Source: Hymenobacter cellulosilyticus
GTDB taxonomy: Bacteria > Bacteroidota > Bacteroidia > Cytophagales > Hymenobacteraceae
Direction of reading: 5' to 3'
DNA: 64,000 bases
Assembly: GCF_022919215.1 (NCBI RefSeq)
Contig: NZ_CP095046.1
Span: 2,842,501-2,906,500 of the forward strand
A model generated the notes under the pieces. It was not told the DNA's origin. It made no database searches and worked only from the letters and a program-made list of their open reading frames with translations. The translations under genes were made by a program, and so were the position numbers. Shown in pieces: positions 27,519-39,154 of this stretch. Every line of letters begins with the position of its first letter. Within the stretch, counting starts at the first letter, position 1.

Positions 27519-30017
27519 TTAATTACTGAGGTAAACAGAAAACACAGTGCCTACCCCAGGCTGGCTGCGGACGGTAATACTGCCCCCAACGTTGTCGACA
27601 ATGCGCTTAACCATGTACAGGCCGATGCCGGAACCTTCCACGTCGTGGTGCAGGCGCTGAAACAGGCCAAATAACTTAGTTTGTTGAGTTGCATCCAGTC
27701 CCAAGCCGTTGTCTTGCACTTCCAGCAATACTTTATCGGCCACCCGGAAACAGCGCAGCGCTATAACCGGGCGCCGGGCAGGGTCCCGGTACTTTACGGC
27801 GTTGCTGAGCAGATTGTAGAGGATGCTGCGCAGATGTTTGGGTGCAAACGAGATGGCCAGCCCTGTTGTTATAGCCACGGATAGCAAGGCATCGGCAGCT
27901 GCCAGGCGAGGCGCCAGATCCAAGCGGATGGACTCAACCAGGGCCGCCACATCAACTGCCTCAGGGGGCTGCAGCTGGGCCTGCTGCAACTGGGCCAGGT
28001 CGGTGAGCTGCGCGATGGTCAGCTGGAAGCGGGCTACGGCCTCGTGAATCATCGTCAGCAGTGAGGACACGAGCGGGACCTGGAAGGATGACGCCGGCAG
28101 CTCTTCCTGCAGGGCCTCAATCAGGCCTTCGAGGTTGGTGATGGGCTCCCGCAAATCGTGCGAGGCCGTGTAAATGAAGTTGTCCAGGTCCACATTGATG
28201 CGGGTGAGCTGCTGGTTGCTCTCGCCCAGTTCCTCATTGGTGGCCTGCAGCTCCTCGTTGATGGCGGCCAGCTCCTGGTTGAGGTCCTGCACCTGCCGGC
28301 GGGCCAGCACCTGCTCCGTTACGTCCGTGGCCACGCACACAATGCCCATCACGTGGTCGTCGGCCGTGAGCAGGGGCTGGTACACGAAGTTGAAGTAGCC
28401 CGGGGCTCCGGGCTGGTGGCGGGCCAGCTGAATTTCCTGCTCCTGGGCCACATAGGGAATGGCGGTGCGGCGCACGGTAGCCAGCAGCTCGGCGAGTCCC
28501 TGGCTGCGTAATTCAGGTAGCGCGTCAAAAAAAGGCTGCCCTATCAGGGCCGGATAGGGCTGGCCCAGCATTTCGCACATAGGCGGATTGACAAGGTCAA
28601 GCGTGTAGTCTTGGCCCTGAAAGACGCACACGGCAACGGGAGCCTGCGTAAAGACGGCCTGTAGTTGCTGGCGCTCTTCCTCACGCGCCTGGCGGGCCAG
28701 GACTTGCTCGGTGACATCGAAAGCAAAGATGGAGACGCCGGCAATTTCGCCTTTCTCGCGGTAGGCCTGGTAAGTGAAGTTGAAGTAGCGGGCACGAGGC
28801 AACTCGCCCTCTTTAGGAGGTGGCGCAAAGGGAAGTTCCTGGCCAAAGTACGTTTCCCCGGTTTGGTACACGTGGTCGATGAGCTTGCCAAAGCCTTGTT
28901 CCACCAGTTCGGGGGCTGCCACTGCCAAATTGAGCCCCAGCAGCGGCCGGTCGGGAAAGAAGGCCTGATAAGTGGGGTTTACGTACTCGTAGCGGTGGCT
29001 CGGGGCCCGCAGCAACGCAATCAGGGCCGGAGTTTGCTCAAACACCTGATAAAAGGTTTCGCGCTCCTGTGCCTGCCGCTGGGTAGCGGCCAGCAGATCG
29101 GCCTGCAGGGCCAGTGCCGCCTGCGTACGCTCCTGCACCCGGGCTTCAAGCTCCTGGTTGAGCTGCTGCACTTGCTGGCGGGCCACTACCTGGTCTGTTA
29201 CATCAGTGGCCACTACCAGCACGCCGGTGGTTACGCCCTGCTCATTTTGCTGGGGCTGATAAACAAAGTTAAAGTAGATGGTATCCAGGCGGCCGTACCG
29301 GAACATCCGGAATGGCAGCTCAGTGCCAATAAACGGCTCACCGGAATACAGCACGCCGTTGAGCAGCTCACTGACGCCCTGACCCTGCAATTCGGGCAGG
29401 GCCTCCAGCAGCGGAACGCCGAGCAACTGCTCTTCTGGGCGGCCCCAAATCTGGCAGACGGAAGGGTTGGCCAGCGAAATACGGTACTCGGGGCCGTCGA
29501 GTACGGCAATGGCTACCGGGGCCTGGTAAAAGACCTGCTGAAGCTGCTGCCGCTGCCGCTCTACCTGGGCCCGGGCCGTTTGCTCGGCGACCTGACTTTC
29601 GCGCAAGGCTACTTCCACCGCCGTGCGGGGCTGGTCGGCCGTATCGGTGAAGCTCACCAGCAGGCCGGCCCCGGAGCGGCGGGCCGCCAGTCGGTAGAAG
29701 TTGTCGTAGCCGTCGGCCTGGTAGTTGATGTTGTATTCGCGGGGCTCGCCGGTCACGAAGGCCTCCACGTGAAAGTCGAAGGTGCCGTGCTGCTTGCTGT
29801 GGGGCCACTGCTCGTTGTGGGTGAGCGTGGGGCGCTCCGGCATGCGCATCATCCGCTGGGCCGCCGGGTTGAGGTATTCGAAGGTAAAATCAACCAGCTC
29901 CCCGGCCGCATTGTAGAGCGGCATATAAAAAATGACGCCGGTCAGGGACACGGCAAGCAAATTATCGAACAGCTCTTCGAGGGGCGAAAAAGCAGTTAAA
30001 AGAGAGGCAGGCTTCAT
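27519..30017 (-). CDS. Multi-PAS sensor histidine kinase (four PAS domains)
   Basis: An 832-residue protein with no clear membrane segment, so probably cytosolic. PAS1 lies at about 8-125. Three PAS4-like modules follow (about 155-275, 310-440, 445-575), each with 'QAPxAIAxL...VNPxYQ...LPEL...GEPF/GETYFGxELPF...YFNFxYQP...DVTEQVxAR' and joined by coiled coils. The kinase core has the phospho-acceptor segment FIYTASHDLREPITN, N box LLSNAVKYRDP, G1 DNGLGLD and G2 GSGIGLYMVKRIVDN. The chemical signal is unknown. The start at MKPASLLT is chosen because homology begins there. It is the last gene of a long same-strand series that includes the CZB-like, PAS-only and SpoIIAA-like genes. Confidence 0.9.
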   Translation of the reverse strand: MKPASLLTAFSPLEELFDNLLAVSLTGVIFYMPLYNAAGELVDFTFEYLNPAAQRMMRMPERPTLTHNEQWPHSKQHGTFDFHVEAFVTGEPREYNINYQADGYDNFYRLAARRSGAGLLVSFTDTADQPRTAVEVALRESQVAEQTARAQVERQRQQLQQVFYQAPVAIAVLDGPEYRISLANPSVCQIWGRPEEQLLGVPLLEALPELQGQGVSELLNGVLYSGEPFIGTELPFRMFRYGRLDTIYFNFVYQPQQNEQGVTTGVLVVATDVTDQVVARQQVQQLNQELEARVQERTQAALALQADLLAATQRQAQERETFYQVFEQTPALIALLRAPSHRYEYVNPTYQAFFPDRPLLGLNLAVAAPELVEQGFGKLIDHVYQTGETYFGQELPFAPPPKEGELPRARYFNFTYQAYREKGEIAGVSIFAFDVTEQVLARQAREEERQQLQAVFTQAPVAVCVFQGQDYTLDLVNPPMCEMLGQPYPALIGQPFFDALPELRSQGLAELLATVRRTAIPYVAQEQEIQLARHQPGAPGYFNFVYQPLLTADDHVMGIVCVATDVTEQVLARRQVQDLNQELAAINEELQATNEELGESNQQLTRINVDLDNFIYTASHDLREPITNLEGLIEALQEELPASSFQVPLVSSLLTMIHEAVARFQLTIAQLTDLAQLQQAQLQPPEAVDVAALVESIRLDLAPRLAAADALLSVAITTGLAISFAPKHLRSILYNLLSNAVKYRDPARRPVIALRCFRVADKVLLEVQDNGLGLDATQQTKLFGLFQRLHHDVEGSGIGLYMVKRIVDNVGGSITVRSQPGVGTVFSVYLSN

Positions 30018-30124
30018 GGAGGGCAACGGCAAAAGCAAGTATAGGCCAGAATGCCCCGGAACGAAACATGTGCCTACCGGCTCAAAAGCCGGCGGATGAT
30101 GAATACGGCAAAGGCCATAGCCGC

Positions 30125-30481
30125 TTACGCTGCGTTGCGCCGTTCCAGCTGTTGCAGCTGTTGGTCGATTTCGGCCGCATAGCCCTCGATCTGCTCGAGG
30201 CCGGCCCGGGCTTTCTCAATCTGGCCGCGCTGGTAGAGTGTCACGAGCTCCTGGCCGTGCACCAGCATCTGCTGCAGGGTCCGCTCGATGCTGCGCACTT
30301 CCGTGGCCATGCCAAAGCGCGGCATCAGCGTAGAGCGAAGCCATTCCCCAAACGGATTGTCCCGCAGCGAGAACAGGGCCGGGTCGGGCTCGCGCACGCC
30401 GTACAGCACCGAACGCAGCCGGGACTTAAACACAACCTGCTTGATGCGGGCCTGCTGAAACTCCAGGCTATCGATATCCAT
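30125..30481 (-). CDS. CZB-like helical protein lacking most zinc ligands
   Basis: A 118-residue cytosolic, all-helical protein. Its order of segments matches the chemoreceptor zinc-binding (CZB) domain: ARIKQVVFKSRLRSVLYG, then NPFGEWLRS, then MLVHGQELVTLYQRGQIEKA. CZB domains normally bind zinc through His, Cys, His, His and sense hypochlorite or zinc. By alignment from memory, only the last His (in LVHGQEL) is kept, and the other three positions hold Gln, an uncharged position near Asn-Pro, and Gln. It is therefore probably not a zinc sensor of the usual kind. It lies 41 bp after the PAS-only gene and 107 bp before the kinase, which fits a partner role in signalling. Confidence 0.6.
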   Translation of the reverse strand: MDIDSLEFQQARIKQVVFKSRLRSVLYGVREPDPALFSLRDNPFGEWLRSTLMPRFGMATEVRSIERTLQQMLVHGQELVTLYQRGQIEKARAGLEQIEGYAAEIDQQLQQLERRNAA

Positions 30482-30522
30482 GCGCGTCGTGCTGTAAAGA
30501 GGAATGAAACAAGGCCGGGCGC

Positions 30523-31818
30523 TTACGCATGAGCTGGGTCGTTAGTGCCCGACAACCGGTCAAGCTGCTGGCGCATACGTTCCCGCTCGGTCACGTCGAA
30601 GGCAAAGCTGAAGATGCCCACAATCTGGCCGTTCTCCCGGAAGGGCTGGTAGGCGAAGTCGAAGTAGCGCTCCTCAATGACGCCGGTAGCGCGCCGGTGC
30701 AGCTGCAAGGGCATGGCCGTGCCGTAGAAAGGCTCCCCGGTTTGGTACACGTTGTCCAGCAGGGCAATAAAACCTTGCTCGGCAGCCTCGGGCACCACGT
30801 CGAGCACCGTGCGGCCCAGCAGCTCGGCGGAGGCAAACAGCTCCTGATACGGCGGGTTGGCAAACTCAAACACGTACTGCGGGCCGCGCACAATGGCAAT
30901 AAGGGCCGGGGCCTGCATAAACAGGTTGTAGAACGTTTCGCGCTGACTTTGCGCTAGCTTGGCCGCCTGGTAGGCCTGGTCCGACAGGAGCAACTGCTGC
31001 TCGTTGGCCTCGGTCAGCTCCTGCACCAGCTGCTTTTGCTCGTGAATATCCACGCCGCTGCCCACCCAGAGCCCAACGCTGCCATCGGGCTGCTGCTGGG
31101 GCACGGTGCGGGCCAATACCCAGCGGTAGAGCCCATCGTGGCGGCGCATGCGGAACTCCACTTCGTAGGGGCGCCGCTCGGCAATGGCCTGGCCCCAGTC
31201 GCGGGACAGGCGTGGCAGGTCGTCGGGGTGAATAACCGACTGCCAGCTCTGGGTGGTGTCCTCGGCCGGTTTTATGCCGGTGAAGCTCAGCCAGCGCTGG
31301 TTGAAATAGTCGATAATACCATCGGGCTGAGCCGTCCAGACCATCATCGGCAGGGCCTCGAGCGTGAACAGGGCCCGTTGCTGGGCCAGCAGCAAAGCCT
31401 GCTCCGCCACCCGCCGCTGCTCATCGGCCACGTGCTGGGCCGTTACATCCTCGGGGTGCTGCAGAATATAGAGCAGCTCGCCGTTGCCATCCAGCACCGG
31501 GTAGTGCGTAATGCGCCAGTAGCGCTGCTCAAACCCGCCGCCTTCCGCTTCCGGCCGCAGCAGGTCGTAGCGCGTCAGGGGCATGGTGTGGGGCTGCTTG
31601 TGCTGGCGCACGTATTCGTGCGACTCGTTCAGGTCCCGCTGGCTTTCCGGCGCCGAGGGGTAGGCATCGAAAATATTGCGGCCCACCGCCTGCTCACGCC
31701 CCAGCATCGACACGCCTACATGCTTATCGGAGTTGTCGACGATGGTCCCATCCGGCTGGAGCAACAGGTAGTTGTGGGGCAGCAGACGAAACAGGTGCAG
31801 ATAGTCGGGAGTAGGCAT
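30523..31818 (-). CDS. PAS-domain protein without a kinase domain
   Basis: A 431-residue cytosolic protein with three PAS domains and nothing after them. PAS1 (about 1-135) begins YLHLFRLLPHNYLLLQPDGT. PAS2 is PAS_3-like (about 155-275), with MVWTAQPDGIIDYFNQRW and YRWVLARTVPQQQ ending in DIHEQK. PAS3 (about 300-425) is the same PAS4-like module found in the two kinases of this region (QAPALIAIVRGPQYVFEFAN, YQTGEPFYGTAMPL, FAFDVTERER). The start MPTPDYLHLF is supported by homology. With no output domain it may act as a sensory partner of the kinase two genes downstream (inference). Confidence 0.85.
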   Translation of the reverse strand: MPTPDYLHLFRLLPHNYLLLQPDGTIVDNSDKHVGVSMLGREQAVGRNIFDAYPSAPESQRDLNESHEYVRQHKQPHTMPLTRYDLLRPEAEGGGFEQRYWRITHYPVLDGNGELLYILQHPEDVTAQHVADEQRRVAEQALLLAQQRALFTLEALPMMVWTAQPDGIIDYFNQRWLSFTGIKPAEDTTQSWQSVIHPDDLPRLSRDWGQAIAERRPYEVEFRMRRHDGLYRWVLARTVPQQQPDGSVGLWVGSGVDIHEQKQLVQELTEANEQQLLLSDQAYQAAKLAQSQRETFYNLFMQAPALIAIVRGPQYVFEFANPPYQELFASAELLGRTVLDVVPEAAEQGFIALLDNVYQTGEPFYGTAMPLQLHRRATGVIEERYFDFAYQPFRENGQIVGIFSFAFDVTERERMRQQLDRLSGTNDPAHA

Positions 31819-31899
31819 GCAAAGAACAGTGGGGAGAAGGCCAAAGGTAGGGTTAAGCGCGCATAGTTGTTTTAGTTGAGCTTGGCAGTGCAACCCGAT

Positions 31900-32313
31900 T
31901 TAGCGTTGCAACAGCCAAGTAGCGGCTTGGTTTTCGTCGGCAAACATGCGGAATACAAGGCCGGGCCGGTGAGCGTCCTGCTCTACGTGCTCGGCGGGCA
32001 TGCGGGCCACCTGCTCGGCGGGAAAAACGCCGGCCCCGGTAATGACCCCACCACCCTCCGTCTGCCGGCTAAGCCAGTAGCTTAGAATCCAGGCGCTTTC
32101 ATCCGGAGTAAAGGGCCGCATCACCCGGTGGTCGGAGAGCAGGCGGTGCCAGCCCCGTAGCTGCATAAGCTGGCCGGTGTGGGTCAGGAAGGCCTGCAGC
32201 AGCGGCATTTCCCGCGGCCCACTGTGGTACTGAATCAGGGCATAGCCATCGGGGTGCTCCAGCACCCGCCCCACGGCATTCTCAAAATACAGGCGAATTC
32301 CAGGTACCAGCAT
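31900..32313 (-). CDS. Small SpoIIAA-like (STAS/SEC14 fold) protein A
   Basis: A 137-residue soluble protein and the most divergent of five tandem relatives. It starts MLVPGIRLYFENAVGRVLEH, has HRLLSDHRVMRPFTPDESAW in place of the LND block, and ends with the shared VFRMFADENQAATWLLQR. The terminal 'F.D...A..WL' element is the best mark of the SpoIIAA-like (STAS/SEC14) family as I remember it. Function unknown; related folds bind lipids or partner proteins. It starts 5 bp after gene B stops and stands 81 bp before the PAS-only gene. Confidence 0.6.
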   Translation of the reverse strand: MLVPGIRLYFENAVGRVLEHPDGYALIQYHSGPREMPLLQAFLTHTGQLMQLRGWHRLLSDHRVMRPFTPDESAWILSYWLSRQTEGGGVITGAGVFPAEQVARMPAEHVEQDAHRPGLVFRMFADENQAATWLLQR

Positions 32314-32318
32314 GCGCA

Positions 32319-32753
32319 CTAAGATGGGTCGGTGGGGAGAATGGTGCGCTGGGCCTCGCGCAGCCAGCGCTGGGCCTCGGTGAAATCGTGAAACAGCACC
32401 ATCTGAAACCGGTTTTTGACTTGCTGCAGCATCTGTTCGGCCGACGTTTGCCCGAACACGCCCGGGGCCAGTACGTGGGCAAAGCGGCGCAGGTCCAGGG
32501 CCAGGGCGCGGGGCATCCATTCCTGCGCTATCCAGTCGTTGGCCTGGTTCCAGGAGCCGGTCACCTCCCGGTTGTCGTTGAGCAGGTACACGCACTTGGT
32601 TTGCTGCATCAGGGCCAGCACCTGCTCACAGCCTTTTATCACATTCTCGGTTGAGAGCAGGCCCTGCCAGCGGTTATATATCCAGCCATTGGCTTGGTCC
32701 CACTCCAGGGACAGGTAGGGCTTATCAAAGGAGTTGGTAAGAGTTGTAATCAT
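32319..32753 (-). CDS. Small SpoIIAA-like protein B
   Basis: A 144-residue soluble protein. It shows the family plan clearly: YLSLEWDQANGWIYNRWQG (first strands), a helix, then VYLLNDNREVTGSW, NDWIAQEWMPRALALDLRRF and the ending VLFHDFTEAQRWL. No phospho-acceptor Ser of the SpoIIAA anti-anti-sigma type can be identified. There are no membrane segments. It lies in the middle of the five-gene array, 48 bp after gene C and 5 bp before gene A. Confidence 0.7.
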   Translation of the reverse strand: MITTLTNSFDKPYLSLEWDQANGWIYNRWQGLLSTENVIKGCEQVLALMQQTKCVYLLNDNREVTGSWNQANDWIAQEWMPRALALDLRRFAHVLAPGVFGQTSAEQMLQQVKNRFQMVLFHDFTEAQRWLREAQRTILPTDPS

Positions 32754-32801
32754 GCCGTGCGAATAAGAAAAGACGAATACCGCTACTGTCCCAGCGGGTG
32801 C

Positions 32802-33199
32802 CTACATGCGCTGCAGCCACTCACGGGCCGTGGCCGGGTCGCGGAAGGTCAGGAACACGATGCCGGCCGAGGTGTGCTGAAGGGCCAGCTCGGCGGAAAG
32901 CTGGCTGTAGCGCTCGGGGAGTGAATCCAGGCAAAGTAGCGGCAGCCGGCGTCGTAGAGCTGGGGAAAAAATACTTCCCCGCCCCAGCGGGCCGCGTCGG
33001 CCCAGAGGCCGTGGATGTGGGTGTTGTCGTTCAGCACCTTCGTGCAGCGCTCCTGGCGCAGCAGGTCCAGCAGCGTCAGGGCACCGGCCATAACTTCCTC
33101 GTCATTGGGGCTGCCATGCCAGTCGAGCTGCAGCCAGTTCTCCACATAGTCATGTGAAATCGTCAGGGTCGGGGTATCGGAGAGGATGCGCAGGGCCAT
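32802..33199 (-). CDS. Small SpoIIAA-like protein C; frame broken once
   Basis: A 132-residue soluble protein after repair. The first part has NWLQLDWHGSPNDEEVMAGA, TKVLNDNTHIHGLWADAARW and CRYFAWIHSP. The frame is then lost at the run 32916-32919. Adding one C on the coding strand continues it as ERYSQLSAELALQHTSAGIV and ends LTFRDPATAREWLQRM, which matches the 'F.D...A..WL' ending of its neighbours. The start is MALRILSD. Gaps are 44 bp upstream to gene D and 48 bp downstream to gene B. Confidence 0.7.
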
Positions 33200-33243
33200 A
33201 GGAGGGGGAGAGGAAAAGCGGAAAAGTGTCGGCGGCCGCTGGG

Positions 33244-33645
33244 CTAGCAGATGGAGAGAAGCCAGTGTTGGGCATCTTCCAGATTGTCGAAAACCCGGGC
33301 CTGAAAAGCCGTTAGCTGGGAATAGAAAGCATCGGCCGAGCCCTCGGCCAGGGTTGCCGGGGTGGTAATCATGGCAAAGTGCCGCAGCCCGGCCGCCGCC
33401 GCGTTGGGCGCCCACTCGTTGATGACCCAGTCCATGGAATGGTCCCAGGGGCCGCGCACCAGCCGCGTATCATTCAGCACGCACGAAAATCCGGCCTTGG
33501 CCAGAGCGGCGGTGTAGGCCTGGGCACCTTCCTGAATGTTGGCCGCCGTCAGGTAGCCTTGCCAGGTAACCCAGATCCAGCGGTTGTCAAGGTCGGTTTC
33601 GATTGTCAGAAAAACCTTGCCTAATGACGATTTCAATTCTTGCAT
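33244..33645 (-). CDS. Small SpoIIAA-like protein D
   Basis: A 133-residue soluble protein with all the array's landmarks: LDNRWIWVTWQGYLTAANIQ, SCVLNDTRLVRGPWDHSMDW, VINEWAPNAAAAGLRHFAMI and VFDNLEDAQHWLLSIC. It is closest in pattern to proteins B and C. The start MQELKSSLGK is chosen because the upstream open frame has no such pattern. No enzyme motif is visible. Confidence 0.7.
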   Translation of the reverse strand: MQELKSSLGKVFLTIETDLDNRWIWVTWQGYLTAANIQEGAQAYTAALAKAGFSCVLNDTRLVRGPWDHSMDWVINEWAPNAAAAGLRHFAMITTPATLAEGSADAFYSQLTAFQARVFDNLEDAQHWLLSIC

Positions 33646-33718
33646 GAGTGTGGTATACGTAGTAGGGGCTGCAGTAGCCTCCTGGTGCTCAATTAAACCT
33701 CTTGCCCTCCGAGCAGCC

Positions 33719-34126
33719 TTAGCTGAGGGCCCACGTGCGGGCCTCGTCCACATCGGTAAACATGCGGGTCTGGAAGGGCAGCCCGGGAGTGGTGTCCTGG
33801 TACAGGTTGCCGATGAGCATTCGGTTGAGCGTTTGCTCGGCCTCCAGGCGGGCAAAGCGGACAACTCCAAGCTCCACCAGCGCGGGCAATACGGTTTGGC
33901 CAATCCAGGTCAGGTCTTTAGGCCGCACGGCGCCCAGCAGCCGGTCGTTGGCTATCCAGGCAGTGGCGTGGTGCTCCCGGGCCAGGGCAATAGCCTCGGT
34001 AATATAGCGGCGGAAGTCGGCGCTACTCACGTAGCCAAGCCATTCGGTTTCAAGAGCATTGTGGGTGCCCTGGTGCAGGTGTAGCACCAGGGCCGGGTGG
34101 GAGGCAAGAACAGGCATAAACGACAC
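33719..34126 (-). CDS. Small SpoIIAA-like protein E, first gene of the array
   Basis: A 135-residue soluble protein. It keeps the plan in diverged form: ALETEWLGYVSSADFRRYIT, AWIANDRLLGAVRPKDLTWI (the LND block has become AND), PALVELGVVRFARLE and RMFTDVDEARTWALS. MSFMPVLAS offers two starts, and either is possible. It is the first gene of the same-strand series reaching down to the kinase at 27519. A consensus -7 element lies about 100 bp upstream. Confidence 0.65.
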   Translation of the reverse strand: MSFMPVLASHPALVLHLHQGTHNALETEWLGYVSSADFRRYITEAIALAREHHATAWIANDRLLGAVRPKDLTWIGQTVLPALVELGVVRFARLEAEQTLNRMLIGNLYQDTTPGLPFQTRMFTDVDEARTWALS

Positions 34127-34226: not shown

Positions 34227-34234
34227 CAAAGCTA
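34227..34234 (-). promoter_or_regulatory. Candidate promoter (-7 element) of the SpoIIAA-like/PAS gene series
   Basis: On the minus strand TAGCTTTG matches TAnnTTTG exactly, about 100 bp before the first small gene. No clear -33 TTG is present. The gap 34127-34391 is shared with a divergent plus-strand gene. Confidence 0.45.
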
Positions 34235-34391: not shown

Positions 34392-34745
34392 ATGATGAAC
34401 ACACCGTTCTATACCCGACTAACCCAACTGCGCCGGGAACTTGAGGCCAGTGACTCTTCCGACACCTTTGGCCTGAGCGTACTGCTGGCTATTCGCCGGG
34501 AGCTGACTCGCCTGATGCAGAGCATTCCCGACAAGCAGGTGCAAAAGCTGCCCAAAGACTTGCAGCATGCCTTTTCGCAGAGCTTCCGCAAGCTCATTGC
34601 CCGGGTGCCTTTTCCCGCGCCCAGCTGGGAGCAGCAGTATCAGGAAACGGAGCAGGCCCTGGCCGTGATAGAGCAGATTGCCCAGCAGCTGCCCTTGCAG
34701 CTGCCCGCCATACCGACCCTGAGCCGTCTGACCGAGGGCGAGTAG
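34392..34745 (+). CDS. Hypothetical 117-residue helical protein
   Basis: Family not recognised. The start MMNTPFYTRLTQLRREL is at one of two adjacent ATGs. The sequence is rich in Leu, Gln, Arg and Glu and looks fully alpha-helical: LSVLLAIRRELTRLMQSI, KDLQHAFSQSFRKLIA and QQYQETEQALAVIEQIAQQL. No signal peptide or membrane segment. It is the only plus-strand gene inside the signalling island and is divergent from the SpoIIAA-like array. A partner role in signalling is only a guess from position. Confidence 0.55.
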   Translation: MMNTPFYTRLTQLRRELEASDSSDTFGLSVLLAIRRELTRLMQSIPDKQVQKLPKDLQHAFSQSFRKLIARVPFPAPSWEQQYQETEQALAVIEQIAQQLPLQLPAIPTLSRLTEGE

Positions 34746-34773: not shown

Positions 34774-35523
34774 CTAGTGGGTAACTTCCGGCTCAGCCGG
34801 AGGGCGCAAGGCGGCCAGCGCGTCGGCTGTGTGTTGTTCCAGCAGCCAGATAACCACTTCCGCTTCCTCGTCGATGGAGTGCTGGGAGGCTGGTCCGGCC
34901 GGGCTGTTGGCTCCTGCTTCCCCGCGTGCCAGCTTCGTCAGCGTGCCGATACGGGTCAGCAAGTCATCCAACTCGCCGTAGAGCAGGGTCCAGATGGCTT
35001 GGGCCTGCTCCGGGCGCTGCTGCAGCAGCTGGCGCAAATCCAGGATTTTCATGACCAGCCCGGCCAGGGCCTGCAGCCGCCGCTGTTCCACAGCCGAAAG
35101 GGTGCGGGGCTGCCGGTCGATAACGCACAGGGCGCCAATCTGGTGGCCTTCTTCGGTGCGCAGCGGGTGGCCGGCGTAAAACCGCAGCTCAAGCGCCTCG
35201 GCCACCTTGGGGTCGGTCAGGTGGCAGGGCTCCCGCTGCAGATCTTCGTACACCGTCGTGTCTTCGTGCAGCACGGCCACCGAGCAGATGCTTTGCTCAC
35301 GGTTTACCCGCACGGCCCCGGGCAAGCCAAAGTTGGCCTTAAACCAGACACTGCCTTCTTCTACCAGCGAAACCAACGCAATAGGCACCTGAAACAGCTT
35401 GGCCGTCAGGCGCACGATTTCGTCGAAGACGGCATCGGGCTCCGTACCCAGCGACAGATAGGGCAGCAGGGCCTGCAGGCGCTGGGGGTCGTTCGCGGGA
35501 ATAAGCGAGGTGGGTGTAGGCAT
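34774..35523 (-). CDS. GAF-domain protein
   Basis: A 249-residue cytosolic protein. One GAF domain (about 20-165) carries FDEIVRLTAKLFQVPIALVS, VWFKANFGLP, REQSICSVAVLHEDTTVYED and FYAGHPLRTEEGHQIGALCV, the common 'sensor GAF' pattern of Bacteroidota. A helical C-terminal part (about 165-249) has no kinase or cyclase motif, so output must be through a partner. It follows the response regulator gene on the same strand at a 228-bp gap. The ligand is unknown. Confidence 0.85.
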   Translation of the reverse strand: MPTPTSLIPANDPQRLQALLPYLSLGTEPDAVFDEIVRLTAKLFQVPIALVSLVEEGSVWFKANFGLPGAVRVNREQSICSVAVLHEDTTVYEDLQREPCHLTDPKVAEALELRFYAGHPLRTEEGHQIGALCVIDRQPRTLSAVEQRRLQALAGLVMKILDLRQLLQQRPEQAQAIWTLLYGELDDLLTRIGTLTKLARGEAGANSPAGPASQHSIDEEAEVVIWLLEQHTADALAALRPPAEPEVTH

Positions 35524-35751: not shown

Positions 35752-36177
35752 CTACTGCGCCGCGGGTGGCGAGGAAAAGTGCTCTTGCAGAATCTGGTCG
35801 ACCTTATCCCGGGTCAGGGGCTTGGTCAGGTAGCCGGCAATGGGCAGGTTCTGCATGTTGGCCACGTCCAGCGGGTTCAGGGAAGTGGTGAGCATGATAA
35901 TGACCACGGCCGGGTTGTCGGTCGAAAGGCGCTGGGTGTAGGCCTGCAGGAATTCTACCCCGTTCATGCGCGGCATTTTCATGTCCAGCAGAATCAGGGC
36001 TGGGCAAGTAGCAGAAGCCACCGGCTCGCAGTGCGTGTGCAGTAAGTCCAGCGCCTCCTGACCGTTGGTGGCTACCAGCACGGTGTCCGTAATGGCCATG
36101 CGCCGCAGCAGCCTCTGGTTGAGGTAGTTAGTCGTCTCATCATCGTCGACGAGCAGGGTGCAGGAAATGGCAGCCAT
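35752..36177 (-). CDS. Single-domain response regulator (CheY-like)
   Basis: A 141-residue receiver domain with no output domain. The acidic pair is in LLVDDDETTNYLNQRLL, the phospho-acceptor Asp in ALILLDMKMPRMNGVEF, the switch Thr in IIMLTTSLNP, and the conserved Lys in YLTKPLTRDKV. A stand-alone receiver of this kind usually works by protein contact or phosphorelay. It starts 23 bp after the multi-PAS kinase at 36201 stops, so it is the likely phosphorylation partner of that kinase. Confidence 0.92.
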   Translation of the reverse strand: MAAISCTLLVDDDETTNYLNQRLLRRMAITDTVLVATNGQEALDLLHTHCEPVASATCPALILLDMKMPRMNGVEFLQAYTQRLSTDNPAVVIIMLTTSLNPLDVANMQNLPIAGYLTKPLTRDKVDQILQEHFSSPPAAQ

Positions 36178-36200: not shown

Positions 36201-39154
36201 TCAGGCAGTAGTACCCGACACCTGGAGCAGGTGTACGAAAAACGTGGTGCCGGCGCCGGGTTGGCTGTGCACCTCGATGTGGCCCCCGGCATTCTCTACC
36301 ATGCGCTTGACCATGTAGAGCCCAATGCCGGAGCCCTCGACGTGGGTATGAAAGCGCTGAAACATGTGAAACAGGCGCGGCCGGTACGTCGGCTCAATGC
36401 CCAGGCCGTTGTCGTGGACCTCCAGCACGGTATAGCCCGGCTTAACGTGGGCTCGCACATCTACCCGGGGCGGCCGGTCGGGGAATGGTACTTCAGGGCG
36501 TTGCTGAGCAGGTTATATACCACCGAGCGCAGGTTTTTTTCCGAGAACTGAATCGGCGGCCGGGCTGCTACATCGATGAACAGCTTGGCGCTGGTGGCCT
36601 GGATCAAGGGCAGCAAGTCCTGCCGTACATTTTCGATAATGGCGGCCAGATCGATGGACGTGGCCGGGGTGTCGTGCTCTTTCTGGAGCTTGGAAACCTC
36701 CGTCAGATGGTCAATGGTGCGCTTGAAGCGCTCCACCGAGCCCAGCATCCGCGTCAGGGTAGGGGCCACGTGCTGGCCTTGCTCACCGTCGGCGGGCAGC
36801 TCTTCCTGCAACAGGTAGAGCAGGCCCTCAATGTTGCTGATAGGCGCTTTCAGGTCGTGGGAGGCGGTGTAGATGAAGTTGTCTAGGTCCACGTTGGTGC
36901 GCACCAGCTGCTCGTTGGCGGCCCGGAGTTCTTCGGCCAGGGCCCGGGCCTGCTGCCCGCCTTCCTCCACCACGCGCCGGGCCTGCACCTGGTCGGTTAC
37001 TTCGTGGGCAAACACCAGCACCCCATCAACCTCGCCCTGGGCATTGCGGCGGGCCTGATAGGTGAAGGTCCAGTAGATTTCCTCCAGCGGACCTCCTTCG
37101 GTGCGGGCCAGCTGCAAGGGCAGCTCCTGAGCCACGAGCGTTTCGCCCGTTTCGTATACCCGTCGCAGCTGCTGATAGATAGGCGCCCTGGCAATTTCGG
37201 GCATGGCTGCCAGCAATGGTTTGCCCAGCAGCGTGCGGCCGGGAAAAATGCGCTGGTAGGCCGGGTTGACGAGCTGGTACACCAGCTCAGGACCGTCGAG
37301 GATAACGATGGGGGCCGGGGCTTCCATAAACAGCGTGTGCAGCTGCTGGCGCTCGGCTTCGCGCTGCCGGCGGGTGCGCACCTGCTCCGTGACGTCGAAG
37401 GCAAAGATGGAGATGCCCGCAATCTGGTCGTTTTCGCGGTAGGCCTGGTAGGTAAAGGTATAGTACACCTCCTGGCCCGGGCCTTCCTGGGTTGGCTCCA
37501 AACGCATGGGCAGTTCCGTGCCGAAGAACGTTTCGCCGGTACGAAACACGGTGTCCAGGGCTTGCAGAAAGCCAGCCGACTCAGTTTCGGGCAGGACCTC
37601 GGCTACCGGACGTCCCGTGAGTTGGCGCTCGGGAAAAAGTTGCTGATAAGCGGCATTGACGTACTCGAAGCGGTGCTGGGGGCCCCGCAGCAAGGCCACG
37701 GCGGCGGGGGTATCGGCCAGGATATGAAACAAGGCCTCGCGCTCCTGGGCCCGGCGCTGGGCGGCGGCCAGCACCTGAGCCTGCAGCGCTTCGTTCTGCT
37801 GGCGGGCCCGCACCCGCTCCGTAACGTTGACGGCAAAGCTCATCACACCCTCGATCTGGCCAGTGGCGTCGAACATAGGCTGGAAGGTAATGTCGAAATA
37901 CTCGTCGTGCATCTGCCCGTCGCGGTAGCGGTCCAGGCGGCGAAGCGTTTCGAGCATGTGCACGGGCTCCCCGGTGCGGTACACCCGGTCCAGGGGCTCA
38001 TGCTGCTCTTCGGGCAACTCGGGCAAGGCCTGGCGGCGGGGCAGGCCCAGCAGGGAGCGGTGTTGCAGCAACTCGCGGGTGCCTGGGTGCACCAAGGTCC
38101 AGACGTGGTCGGGGCCGGTAAAGAGGTTGATCAGCGCTGGGGCCTGACCGAATAAGCGCAGCAGGCGGTTGCGCTGCTCCTCGGCTTCGGCCCGGGCCAT
38201 TTCCGCTTCCCGAGTGCGCTCCTGCACGCGGGCCTCAAGCTCCTGATTGAGATGCTGCACCAGCTGGCGGGCCTCCACCTGCTCGGTCACGTCGTAGGAA
38301 AAGTTCAAGAGGCCATCCACAGTACCGGTGACATCCCGCAAGGCCTGAAAAAACATGTTGAAGTAGCGGCGCTTGAGTTGGCCCGTGCCGGCAAAGTCCA
38401 CCCAGGCTTCTACCTCGGTGCCATAATACGGCACGCCGGTCTGGTACACCTGGTTCATGTAGGTCAGATGCGGCTGATCTATCAGCTCGGGCAAGGCCTC
38501 CCGGATGGACCGGCCCTGCAGGATGCGGGCGGGAAAAAGCTGCTGGTAACCGGGGCTGACGAGGGAATACACCATGTCGGGGCCGTGAAAGGTGGCTACG
38601 CTGGTTGGCAGCTCCATCAAAATCTGGTGCAGGCGCTGGCGCTGGGCCTCTGCTTCGGCCAGCAGCTGTTCCTGGGCCTGCTGGCTAGCCAGGAGCAGCT
38701 GCTGGCTCACCACAGTTTCGGTAACATCCGTGGCGACGTGCAGAATATGGCTTATCCGTCCGTGCTCGTCAAACACGGGGGCATTGCGCGGTTGCCAGTA
38801 GCGCACCACAAACTGGCCCGGCCGGTTGGGGTCGGGCACGTCGTAGCGCTGCTGGGCCATCTGGTGAGCCTGCCCGGTTTCGAGCACGCGGAGCAGGGAA
38901 GCGCGCAGGTTGTGAACGGAATTGGCTTCGGGCGTGGCGGGGTTGTCGGGAAAGACCTCAAACATCGTTCGGCCCAGCAGGAGCTCCCGGCGGGTCAGCG
39001 TGGCCGTCAGGTAGGTGTCGCTGGCCGCCTCGATGTGCAGCTCCGCGGATAGCAGCAGGGTCGGGTCGGGCAGCGCCTGGATAAGGGAAAACAGCGAAGT
39101 AGGGGAGAGCAAGCAGAAGACAGCCGTGAAGCCAAATAAGGTAATCGTATACAC
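36201..39154 (-). CDS. Multi-PAS sensor histidine kinase (five PAS domains); frame broken once
   Basis: A 984-residue cytosolic kinase after repair. PAS1 begins LFSLIQALPDPTLLLSAELH. Four PAS4-like modules follow, each ending in a 'DVTEQVxAR' linker and separated by coiled coils. The kinase core has FIYTASHDLKAPISNIEG (phospho-acceptor His), N box LLSNALKYHSPTGRP, G1 DNGLGIE and G2 GSGIGLYMVKRMVENAGG. The frame breaks between the N box and G1 at the run 36467-36470; one added C restores RPRVDVRAHVKPGY. Unrepaired, the gene would encode a kinase without the G boxes. The receiver protein gene follows after 23 bp. The modules resemble those of the kinase at 27519. Confidence 0.9.

Follow-up and report, generated by a model that had tools for sequence, protein, structure and literature searches.

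CZB domains, familiar from DgcZ and TlpD (PF13682), are described in the literature with a ubiquitous zinc motif of three His and one Cys, in which the Cys is universally conserved (PMC8262984). Separate PAS and transducer subunits are known from the bipartite energy taxis system CetA/CetB of Campylobacter, in which, as at the locus described here, a PAS-only subunit is separate from the partner with which it works (PMC9665402). The small SpoIIAA-like proteins of Shewanella (2OOK, 2Q3L; PF11964) have a published description that, as far as it is accessible, makes no link to a kinase (PMC2954212). Parts resembling each of these occur side by side in Hymenobacter cellulosilyticus (assembly GCF_022919215.1, contig NZ_CP095046.1, positions 2,842,501 to 2,906,500), a stretch of 64,000 nucleotides that is called the window here and within which all unprefixed coordinates are given. 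Eight genes on its minus strand encode, from 34117 to 27519, five small STAS/SpoIIAA-like proteins (g1 to g5), a PAS-only protein, a CZB-like protein and a multi-PAS histidine kinase. As judged from sequence comparison, the PAS-only and CZB-like proteins probably form one complex. It is with no more than moderate confidence that the locus as a whole is read as a CZB-PAS-kinase that has been split, in which one subunit serves for docking and is free of zinc and STAS-fold proteins act as optional adaptors.

A conserved PAS-only/CZB-like pair

The CZB-like gene (30125..30481, minus strand) encodes a helical protein of 118 residues and was recovered, at E 1e-20, from 106 of the 120 genomes that represent the genus. 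Directly upstream lies the PAS-only gene (30523..31818, minus strand), whose product of 431 residues matches PAS_4 in three stretches and PAS_3 in one, and in which no output domain was found with Pfam. A same-strand PAS gene directly upstream of the CZB-like gene recurs at 125 of 127 loci and at all six further loci, and thus at 131 of the 133 loci read, with 12 further pair loci lying outside this count. At one of the two exceptions (L243) the CZB-like gene lies at a contig end; at the other (L229, 7011-10520) two frames assigned by eye, one resembling a LuxR-type response regulator and the other a kinase, lie upstream in place of the PAS-only gene. After three mis-cut PAS sequences (L241, L237 and L246) were dropped, the tree distances of the PAS and CZB-like proteins are correlated (Mantel r 0.57, 112 pairs), a value reached in none of 999 permutations.

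Single proteins that combine the same parts are found elsewhere. A search with the CZB region of one CZB-PAS protein, which comes from another family of the order (L026), brought up 38 proteins that join a CZB-type domain to PAS, with PF13682 present in 35 of them; named entries include Cytophaga, Sphingobacteriaceae, Ferruginibacter and Chitinophagaceae. HisKA and HATPase_c both occur in 32 of the 38 and neither occurs in six (for example P0180, 448 residues), some of which may be fragments. The zinc ligands His-Cys-His-His (HCHH) are intact in 35 of the 38 fusions; in the other three the Cys is a Ser, and one of these also lacks the last His. Fusions of this kind are a classic indication of separate proteins acting together; here they support this for the PAS-only and CZB-like proteins most, and for the kinase by extension. 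The kinase of the window (P0008; 27519..30017, minus strand; 832 residues) is a histidine kinase, with HisKA at 28.8 bits and HATPase_c at 79.3 bits, both over the cut-off, and with SHDLREP, NLLSNAVKY, DNGLGL and GSGIGL stretches.

At three loci (L241:4438, L249:7759 and L255:3440) CZB-like and PAS sequence share one open frame. These could be PAS-CZB fusions or cases of lost stops.

Loss of the zinc site

The label CZB, used in the initial annotation, has to be amended: all four zinc ligands are replaced (Q15, N42, L69 and L73 in the window protein), which leaves nothing of the 3His/1Cys core. The replacements are conserved: among 128 aligned sequences, one canonical paralogue included, the four ligand positions hold Q in 117, N in 121, L in 92 and L in 119. 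None of 132 PAS-paired copies has HCHH, ligand states of paired and unpaired copies alike having been counted at loci longer than 5 kb only. In place of the CX(L/F)GXW(Y/L) motif the window protein has N-P-F-G-E-W-L, with everything except the Cys kept.

No match to PF13682 was reported at E 1 for the CZB-like protein P0006, and the CZB-like P0074 reached 13.4 bits (E 0.1 only) against a cut-off of 29.4. The single NCBIfam match of the CZB-like gene is far below its cut-off. A weak match to PF21118 (best E 0.0066) was obtained for 11 of 64 CZB-like members, the window protein not among them. When the sequences of solved structures were searched with the CZB-like profile, 12 chains were returned, headed by a designed helical protein and with none named CZB.

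Canonical CZB genes were also encountered outside such pairs. In the same genome, at 5.41 Mb (L064:8921-11352), an HCHH CZB gene is followed by what look like the frames of a split kinase and of a receiver protein. In three sister-genus genomes (L290, L292 and L293), canonical standalone CZB genes share a neighbourhood that includes a dehydrogenase-like gene, recognized by eye, and in which no PAS gene was found.

Composition of the locus in relatives

Conservation of the whole set, as envisaged in the initial annotation, holds for the composition, which recurs with another gene order in the sister-genus genome G330, but not for its unity, as the small-gene array and the triple of PAS-only, CZB-like and kinase genes also occur apart. 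In G330 (L288), one strand carries a PAS kinase, two small genes, a CZB-like gene, a PAS-only gene, a second CZB-like gene and two more small genes. Its kinase has HATPase_c over the cut-off and HisKA below it. Each of its small genes fits the family profile with an E value of 4e-20 or lower, one of them being 59% identical to g2, and a GAF gene nearby is 41% identical to the GAF gene of the window.

In G106 the triple is kept without small genes, with protein identities of 82% (PAS-only), 80% (CZB-like) and 72% (kinase), and the DNA homology stops at window position 31888, 12 bp short of g5. In G066 the order is a GAF gene, a sixth small gene, g1 to g4 and a broken g5, which continues into the last eight CZB-like residues and their stop (QLERRNAA; L155:8843-9020), with CAGCTG-type repeats at the join. 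This join is likely to be the scar of a deletion that took the PAS-only gene and most of g5 and of the CZB-like gene. No kinase of any sort turned up in the 17.5-kb locus of G066. Because the array occurs without the triple in G066 and the triple without the array in G106, the eight-gene series is composed, mosaic-like, of two units, each of which may have a promoter.

Across the genus, a same-strand small gene lies near the pair at 13 of 127 loci, the window included; one of the 13 (L075, in G005), where the small gene is of the g3 type and the PAS frame of the pair is broken, stands outside the trees. The g5 subtype adjoins pairs in G004, G008, G064, G067, G087, G102 and G108, the order in G067 being g5-like gene, PAS-only and CZB-like. 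In other species a g3-type gene stands beside the pair at nine loci, six of which also have a g5-type gene, and at several loci the stop of the g3-type gene precedes the start of the PAS gene by about 50 bp. These nine loci, together with one unlinked pair, form a single clade (support 1.0 for PAS and 0.98 for CZB-like). A GAF gene is present within 6 kb of six of the 13 pairs linked to small genes, as against one of the 114 others. The association between small genes and pairs is real and loose, with both members and order varying.

A proposed split sensor and its alternatives

In the proposed model, the PAS-only and CZB-like proteins would constitute a soluble two-subunit sensor, related to the CZB-PAS(-kinase) fusions, in which the PAS-only protein does the sensing. 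The CZB part, which in its canonical form senses zinc or redox, would have become a zinc-free helical docking and dimerisation subunit that holds the assembly together. The neighbouring multi-PAS kinase would be the output at this locus, modulated via PAS-PAS or helical contacts, and the small STAS-fold proteins would be interchangeable, optional adaptors drawn from a genome-wide pool, of which the g3 and g5 subtypes plug into the sensor. We infer the physical complex, the zinc-free state, the direction from fused to split, the kinase output and the adaptor role. If PAS and CZB precedents are a guide, the signal might be the intracellular redox or energy state, which is a guess. A bolder version, which we consider doubtful, is that in the Hymenobacteraceae a zinc-sensing CZB-PAS-kinase was split and its CZB metal site lost, leaving a conserved subunit for docking, and that exchangeable STAS-fold plug-ins, drawn from as many as about 29 copies, select the signals that reach the kinase. 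The single sensory complex of the initial annotation is the best reading for the PAS-only, CZB-like and kinase proteins, given the fusions, the adjacency of the pair and G106; support does not extend to the five paralogues as partners specific to the kinase.

Several results weigh against the split-sensor model. With the three mis-cut PAS sequences kept, the Mantel r is 0.13, a value reached in three of 999 permutations. A Foldseek search with the CZB-like model gave no match at E 0.001, and the aligner scores of the model lie within the helical-bundle background. Four of seven standalone CZB genes that have no PAS gene beside them keep HCHH, and ligand loss therefore tracks the PAS neighbour rather than standing alone. 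No same-strand small gene is near 114 of the 127 pairs, and of the 12 linked pairs that the trees include, nine fall within one clade and are thus not independent. All 12 lie on a 15-tip side of the PAS tree (0.946), but they are not confined in this way in the CZB-like tree (75 tips). Measured at 3-6 kb, the proximity of the 24 small-gene places of the genome to PAS or kinase domains does not exceed chance. A kinase gene follows the pair directly in no more than three cases, namely the window, G106 and G087, where the kinase core is a different one (40%), and seven of 127 pairs have a same-strand kinase at up to 5 kb downstream. From the two promoter-like motifs, it is also plausible that the series is read as two transcripts, one for the array and one for the PAS-only, CZB-like and kinase genes.

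It may be that two unrelated neighbours have been taken for one system: a general-purpose STAS/SEC14-like array, whose proteins perhaps bind small molecules or lipids, beside a PAS-only/CZB-like/kinase unit, the two having separate promoters and no functional link. Some weight has to be given to this alternative, even if it is probably not correct. The separate occurrence of array and triple in G066 and G106 fits it, as do the second promoter-like motif at 31842, also present in G106, the placement of small-gene copies elsewhere away from kinases, and the proposal that the Shewanella SpoIIAA-like proteins are nonpolar-ligand carriers or interfacial enzymes (PMC2954212). It accounts less well for the recurrence of the g3 and g5 subtypes beside pairs, with the short spacing between g3-type stop and PAS start, or for the recurrence of the whole composition in the sister genus; and the apparent scar in G066 implies that the two units formerly adjoined each other at that locus too.

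Alternatively, the PAS-only and CZB-like proteins could be a free-standing sensor that acts on several kinases or outputs in trans, with the window kinase as a chance neighbour. The 120 of 127 pairs whose strand shows no kinase in the next 5 kb downstream would be expected in that case, and a second PAS-only/CZB-like pair in the same genome, at 5.09 Mb, has no same-strand kinase found near it. However, HisKA and HATPase_c are parts of most CZB-PAS fusions, a related kinase lies directly downstream of the pair in G106, and in G105 (L255) a kinase core 55% identical to that of the window is located about 0.8 kb upstream of the pair. Action in trans, with the window kinase next door by chance, is regarded as rather unlikely.

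The small STAS/SpoIIAA-like proteins

The initial description of the five small proteins as related and strongly diverged proved correct, with pairwise homology detected for all five (g2-g4, E 3e-21 and 35% identity; g1-g2, E 2e-4; g1-g5, E 0.004). The weakest relative is g5, whose score against g2 was equalled in five of 300 shuffles. Their assignment to PF11964 (cut-off 25 bits) succeeded for g2 (29.1 bits), fell short for g4 (19.4 bits) and drew no reported match for g1, g3 or g5 in the Pfam scan; at E 0.01, seven of 39 members of the small-protein family match this model. The g4 protein is confidently modelled with a STAS/SpoIIAA-like fold, closest to a Dyadobacter STAS protein, RsbS and SpoIIAA. 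A common fold is thus consistent with homology among all five and with a model for g4 alone. No NCBIfam family was matched by the small genes, and their protein profile hit none of the sequences of solved structures at E 10.

A partner-switching or stressosome-like system, in which the small STAS proteins would be phosphorylated switches of the anti-anti-sigma type, has the closest relatives of the g4 model in its favour and is nevertheless very improbable, since the residue after the conserved D60, presumably the position at which STAS switches carry Ser or Thr, is Asn in 36 of 39 family members as judged by sequence position only, so that the phosphorylatable residue is missing there, and since, of the eight genes, only the histidine kinase drew a Pfam match to HATPase_c_2, which we take to be the RsbW-type family, and this match stayed under the cut-off.

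The genome holds 29 copies of this family at 24 places. In view of these numbers and of the G066 array without a kinase, the idea that the five genes are a set dedicated to the window kinase was rejected. The suggestion of kinase-specific partners is likewise unsupported, given the chance-level distance of these places from PAS and kinase domains at 3-6 kb, and the family as a whole occurs scattered and independently of the kinase in relatives. Across the order, SpoIIAA-like/STAS proteins were found in 128 of 241 genomes; at most 17-18 candidates per genome were scored, and copy numbers are thus lower bounds. Tandem pairs of small STAS-fold genes are seen repeatedly in further genomes of this genus, and in G015 (L129:3809-6760) five such genes, close to the end of a contig, are arranged as two groups of opposite orientation.

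Gene order, neighbouring genes and promoter-like motifs

The genome comprises 6.09 Mb in three contigs. The series runs through g1 (33719..34117; 132 residues, 81% identical to the G066 copy), g2 (33244..33645; 133 residues), g3 (32802..33199), g4 (32319..32753; 144 residues), g5 (31900..32313; 137 residues, the most diverged) and the triple, with gaps of 73, 44, 48, 5, 81, 41 and 107 bp. The common minus strand and all seven gaps agree with the initial annotation, but its gene at 32802 is split over two frames. One frame of g3 extends from 33199 to 32849 and the natural tail lies in another (32921-32802), the shift being of one base, inside a short C run, after the first 94 residues; the G066 relative keeps the gene open. 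A second kinase (36201-39154) and another copy of the small gene (C1:3089653-3090050) are also split, and an assembly slip is therefore the likely cause. Ratios of nonsynonymous to synonymous substitution rates (dN/dS) against relatives range from 0.06 to 0.21 and show purifying selection on the PAS-only, CZB-like and kinase genes, on g1 (0.14), g2 (0.10) and g4 (0.06), and on codons 1 to 94 of g3.

Upstream of the array lies a GAF-domain protein gene (34774..35523, minus strand), of the kind that recurs near pairs linked to small genes. Between it and the array, a plus-strand frame of 117 residues (34392-34745) matches DUF4404 below the cut-off, and the surrounding stretch aligns to G066 at 81% DNA identity. 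Farther upstream, the split kinase is a second multi-PAS histidine kinase on the minus strand, with its ATPase part in a frame of its own (36461-39154 and 36201-36458), and after it comes a response regulator that consists of a receiver alone (35752-36177).

Ahead of the array, a Bacteroidetes-type promoter-like motif, TAGCTTTG (34227..34234, minus strand), forms the core of a 17-bp block of which 15 positions are identical in G066; nine of 500 shuffles gave an equal score. The exact TAnnTTTG noted there in the initial annotation is present, and it is ordinary by number, with 18 in the window and 17.9 expected; significance by count alone was thus rejected. A second motif, overlooked previously, is TACCTTTG (31842..31849, minus strand), between g5 and the PAS-only gene; G106 has TAACTTTG at the corresponding position of the alignment. 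Across the pairs, such motifs stand ahead of the PAS gene more often than expected (41 of 122, with an expectation of 4.3). The possibility that their loss tracks linkage to small genes was rejected (2 of 11 compared with 39 of 111; Fisher 0.33).

Comparison with known systems

No split CZB/PAS system appears in the accessible parts of the mostly open literature on CZB, zinc, DosC and SpoIIAA-like proteins (including PMC8262984, PMC13370339, PMC8846402, PMC9665402 and PMC5549716), and no literature linking Hymenobacter and CZB was found. The parts are of known kinds; their split form, with conserved loss of the metal site and with STAS-fold neighbours, was not encountered in the portions of the literature searched. 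The locus suggests a sensor rewired by taking it apart, and it offers a place to test the function of the SpoIIAA-like/STAS proteins of this order.

The window CZB-like protein resembles the CZB domain of DgcZ and TlpD, for which the four-helix bundle of 3T9O is the reference, in being modelled as a helical bundle, with aligner scores inside the background of such bundles, in the retained x(L/F)GxW(L) motif and in its sequence link to the canonical CZB paralogue of its own genome. It differs in lacking His and Cys ligands and in being encoded by a separate gene rather than forming part of a chemoreceptor or cyclase. The DosC middle domain (PF21118, "DosC CZB-like middle domain") differs in belonging to a globin-cyclase. 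The transducer of CetA/CetB, which we take to be a chemoreceptor, sets that system apart from the one described here, and we know of no CZB-like or STAS-fold partner in it. With the Shewanella SpoIIAA-like proteins the small proteins share fold and Pfam family, g2 being over the cut-off.

The CZB-PAS(-kinase) fusions (for example P0166 and P0180) likewise combine PAS with a CZB-type helical domain that has an FKSRLRS-LYG-like stretch. They differ in being one polypeptide, with the CZB domain N-terminal in those inspected, and in having kept their ligands in 35 of 38 cases. Loss of the metal site in the paired CZB-like proteins, set against its retention in the fusions and in some unpaired genes, is a natural comparison for the role of zinc in CZB signalling, and the zinc-less family allows one to ask what the CZB fold does without zinc.

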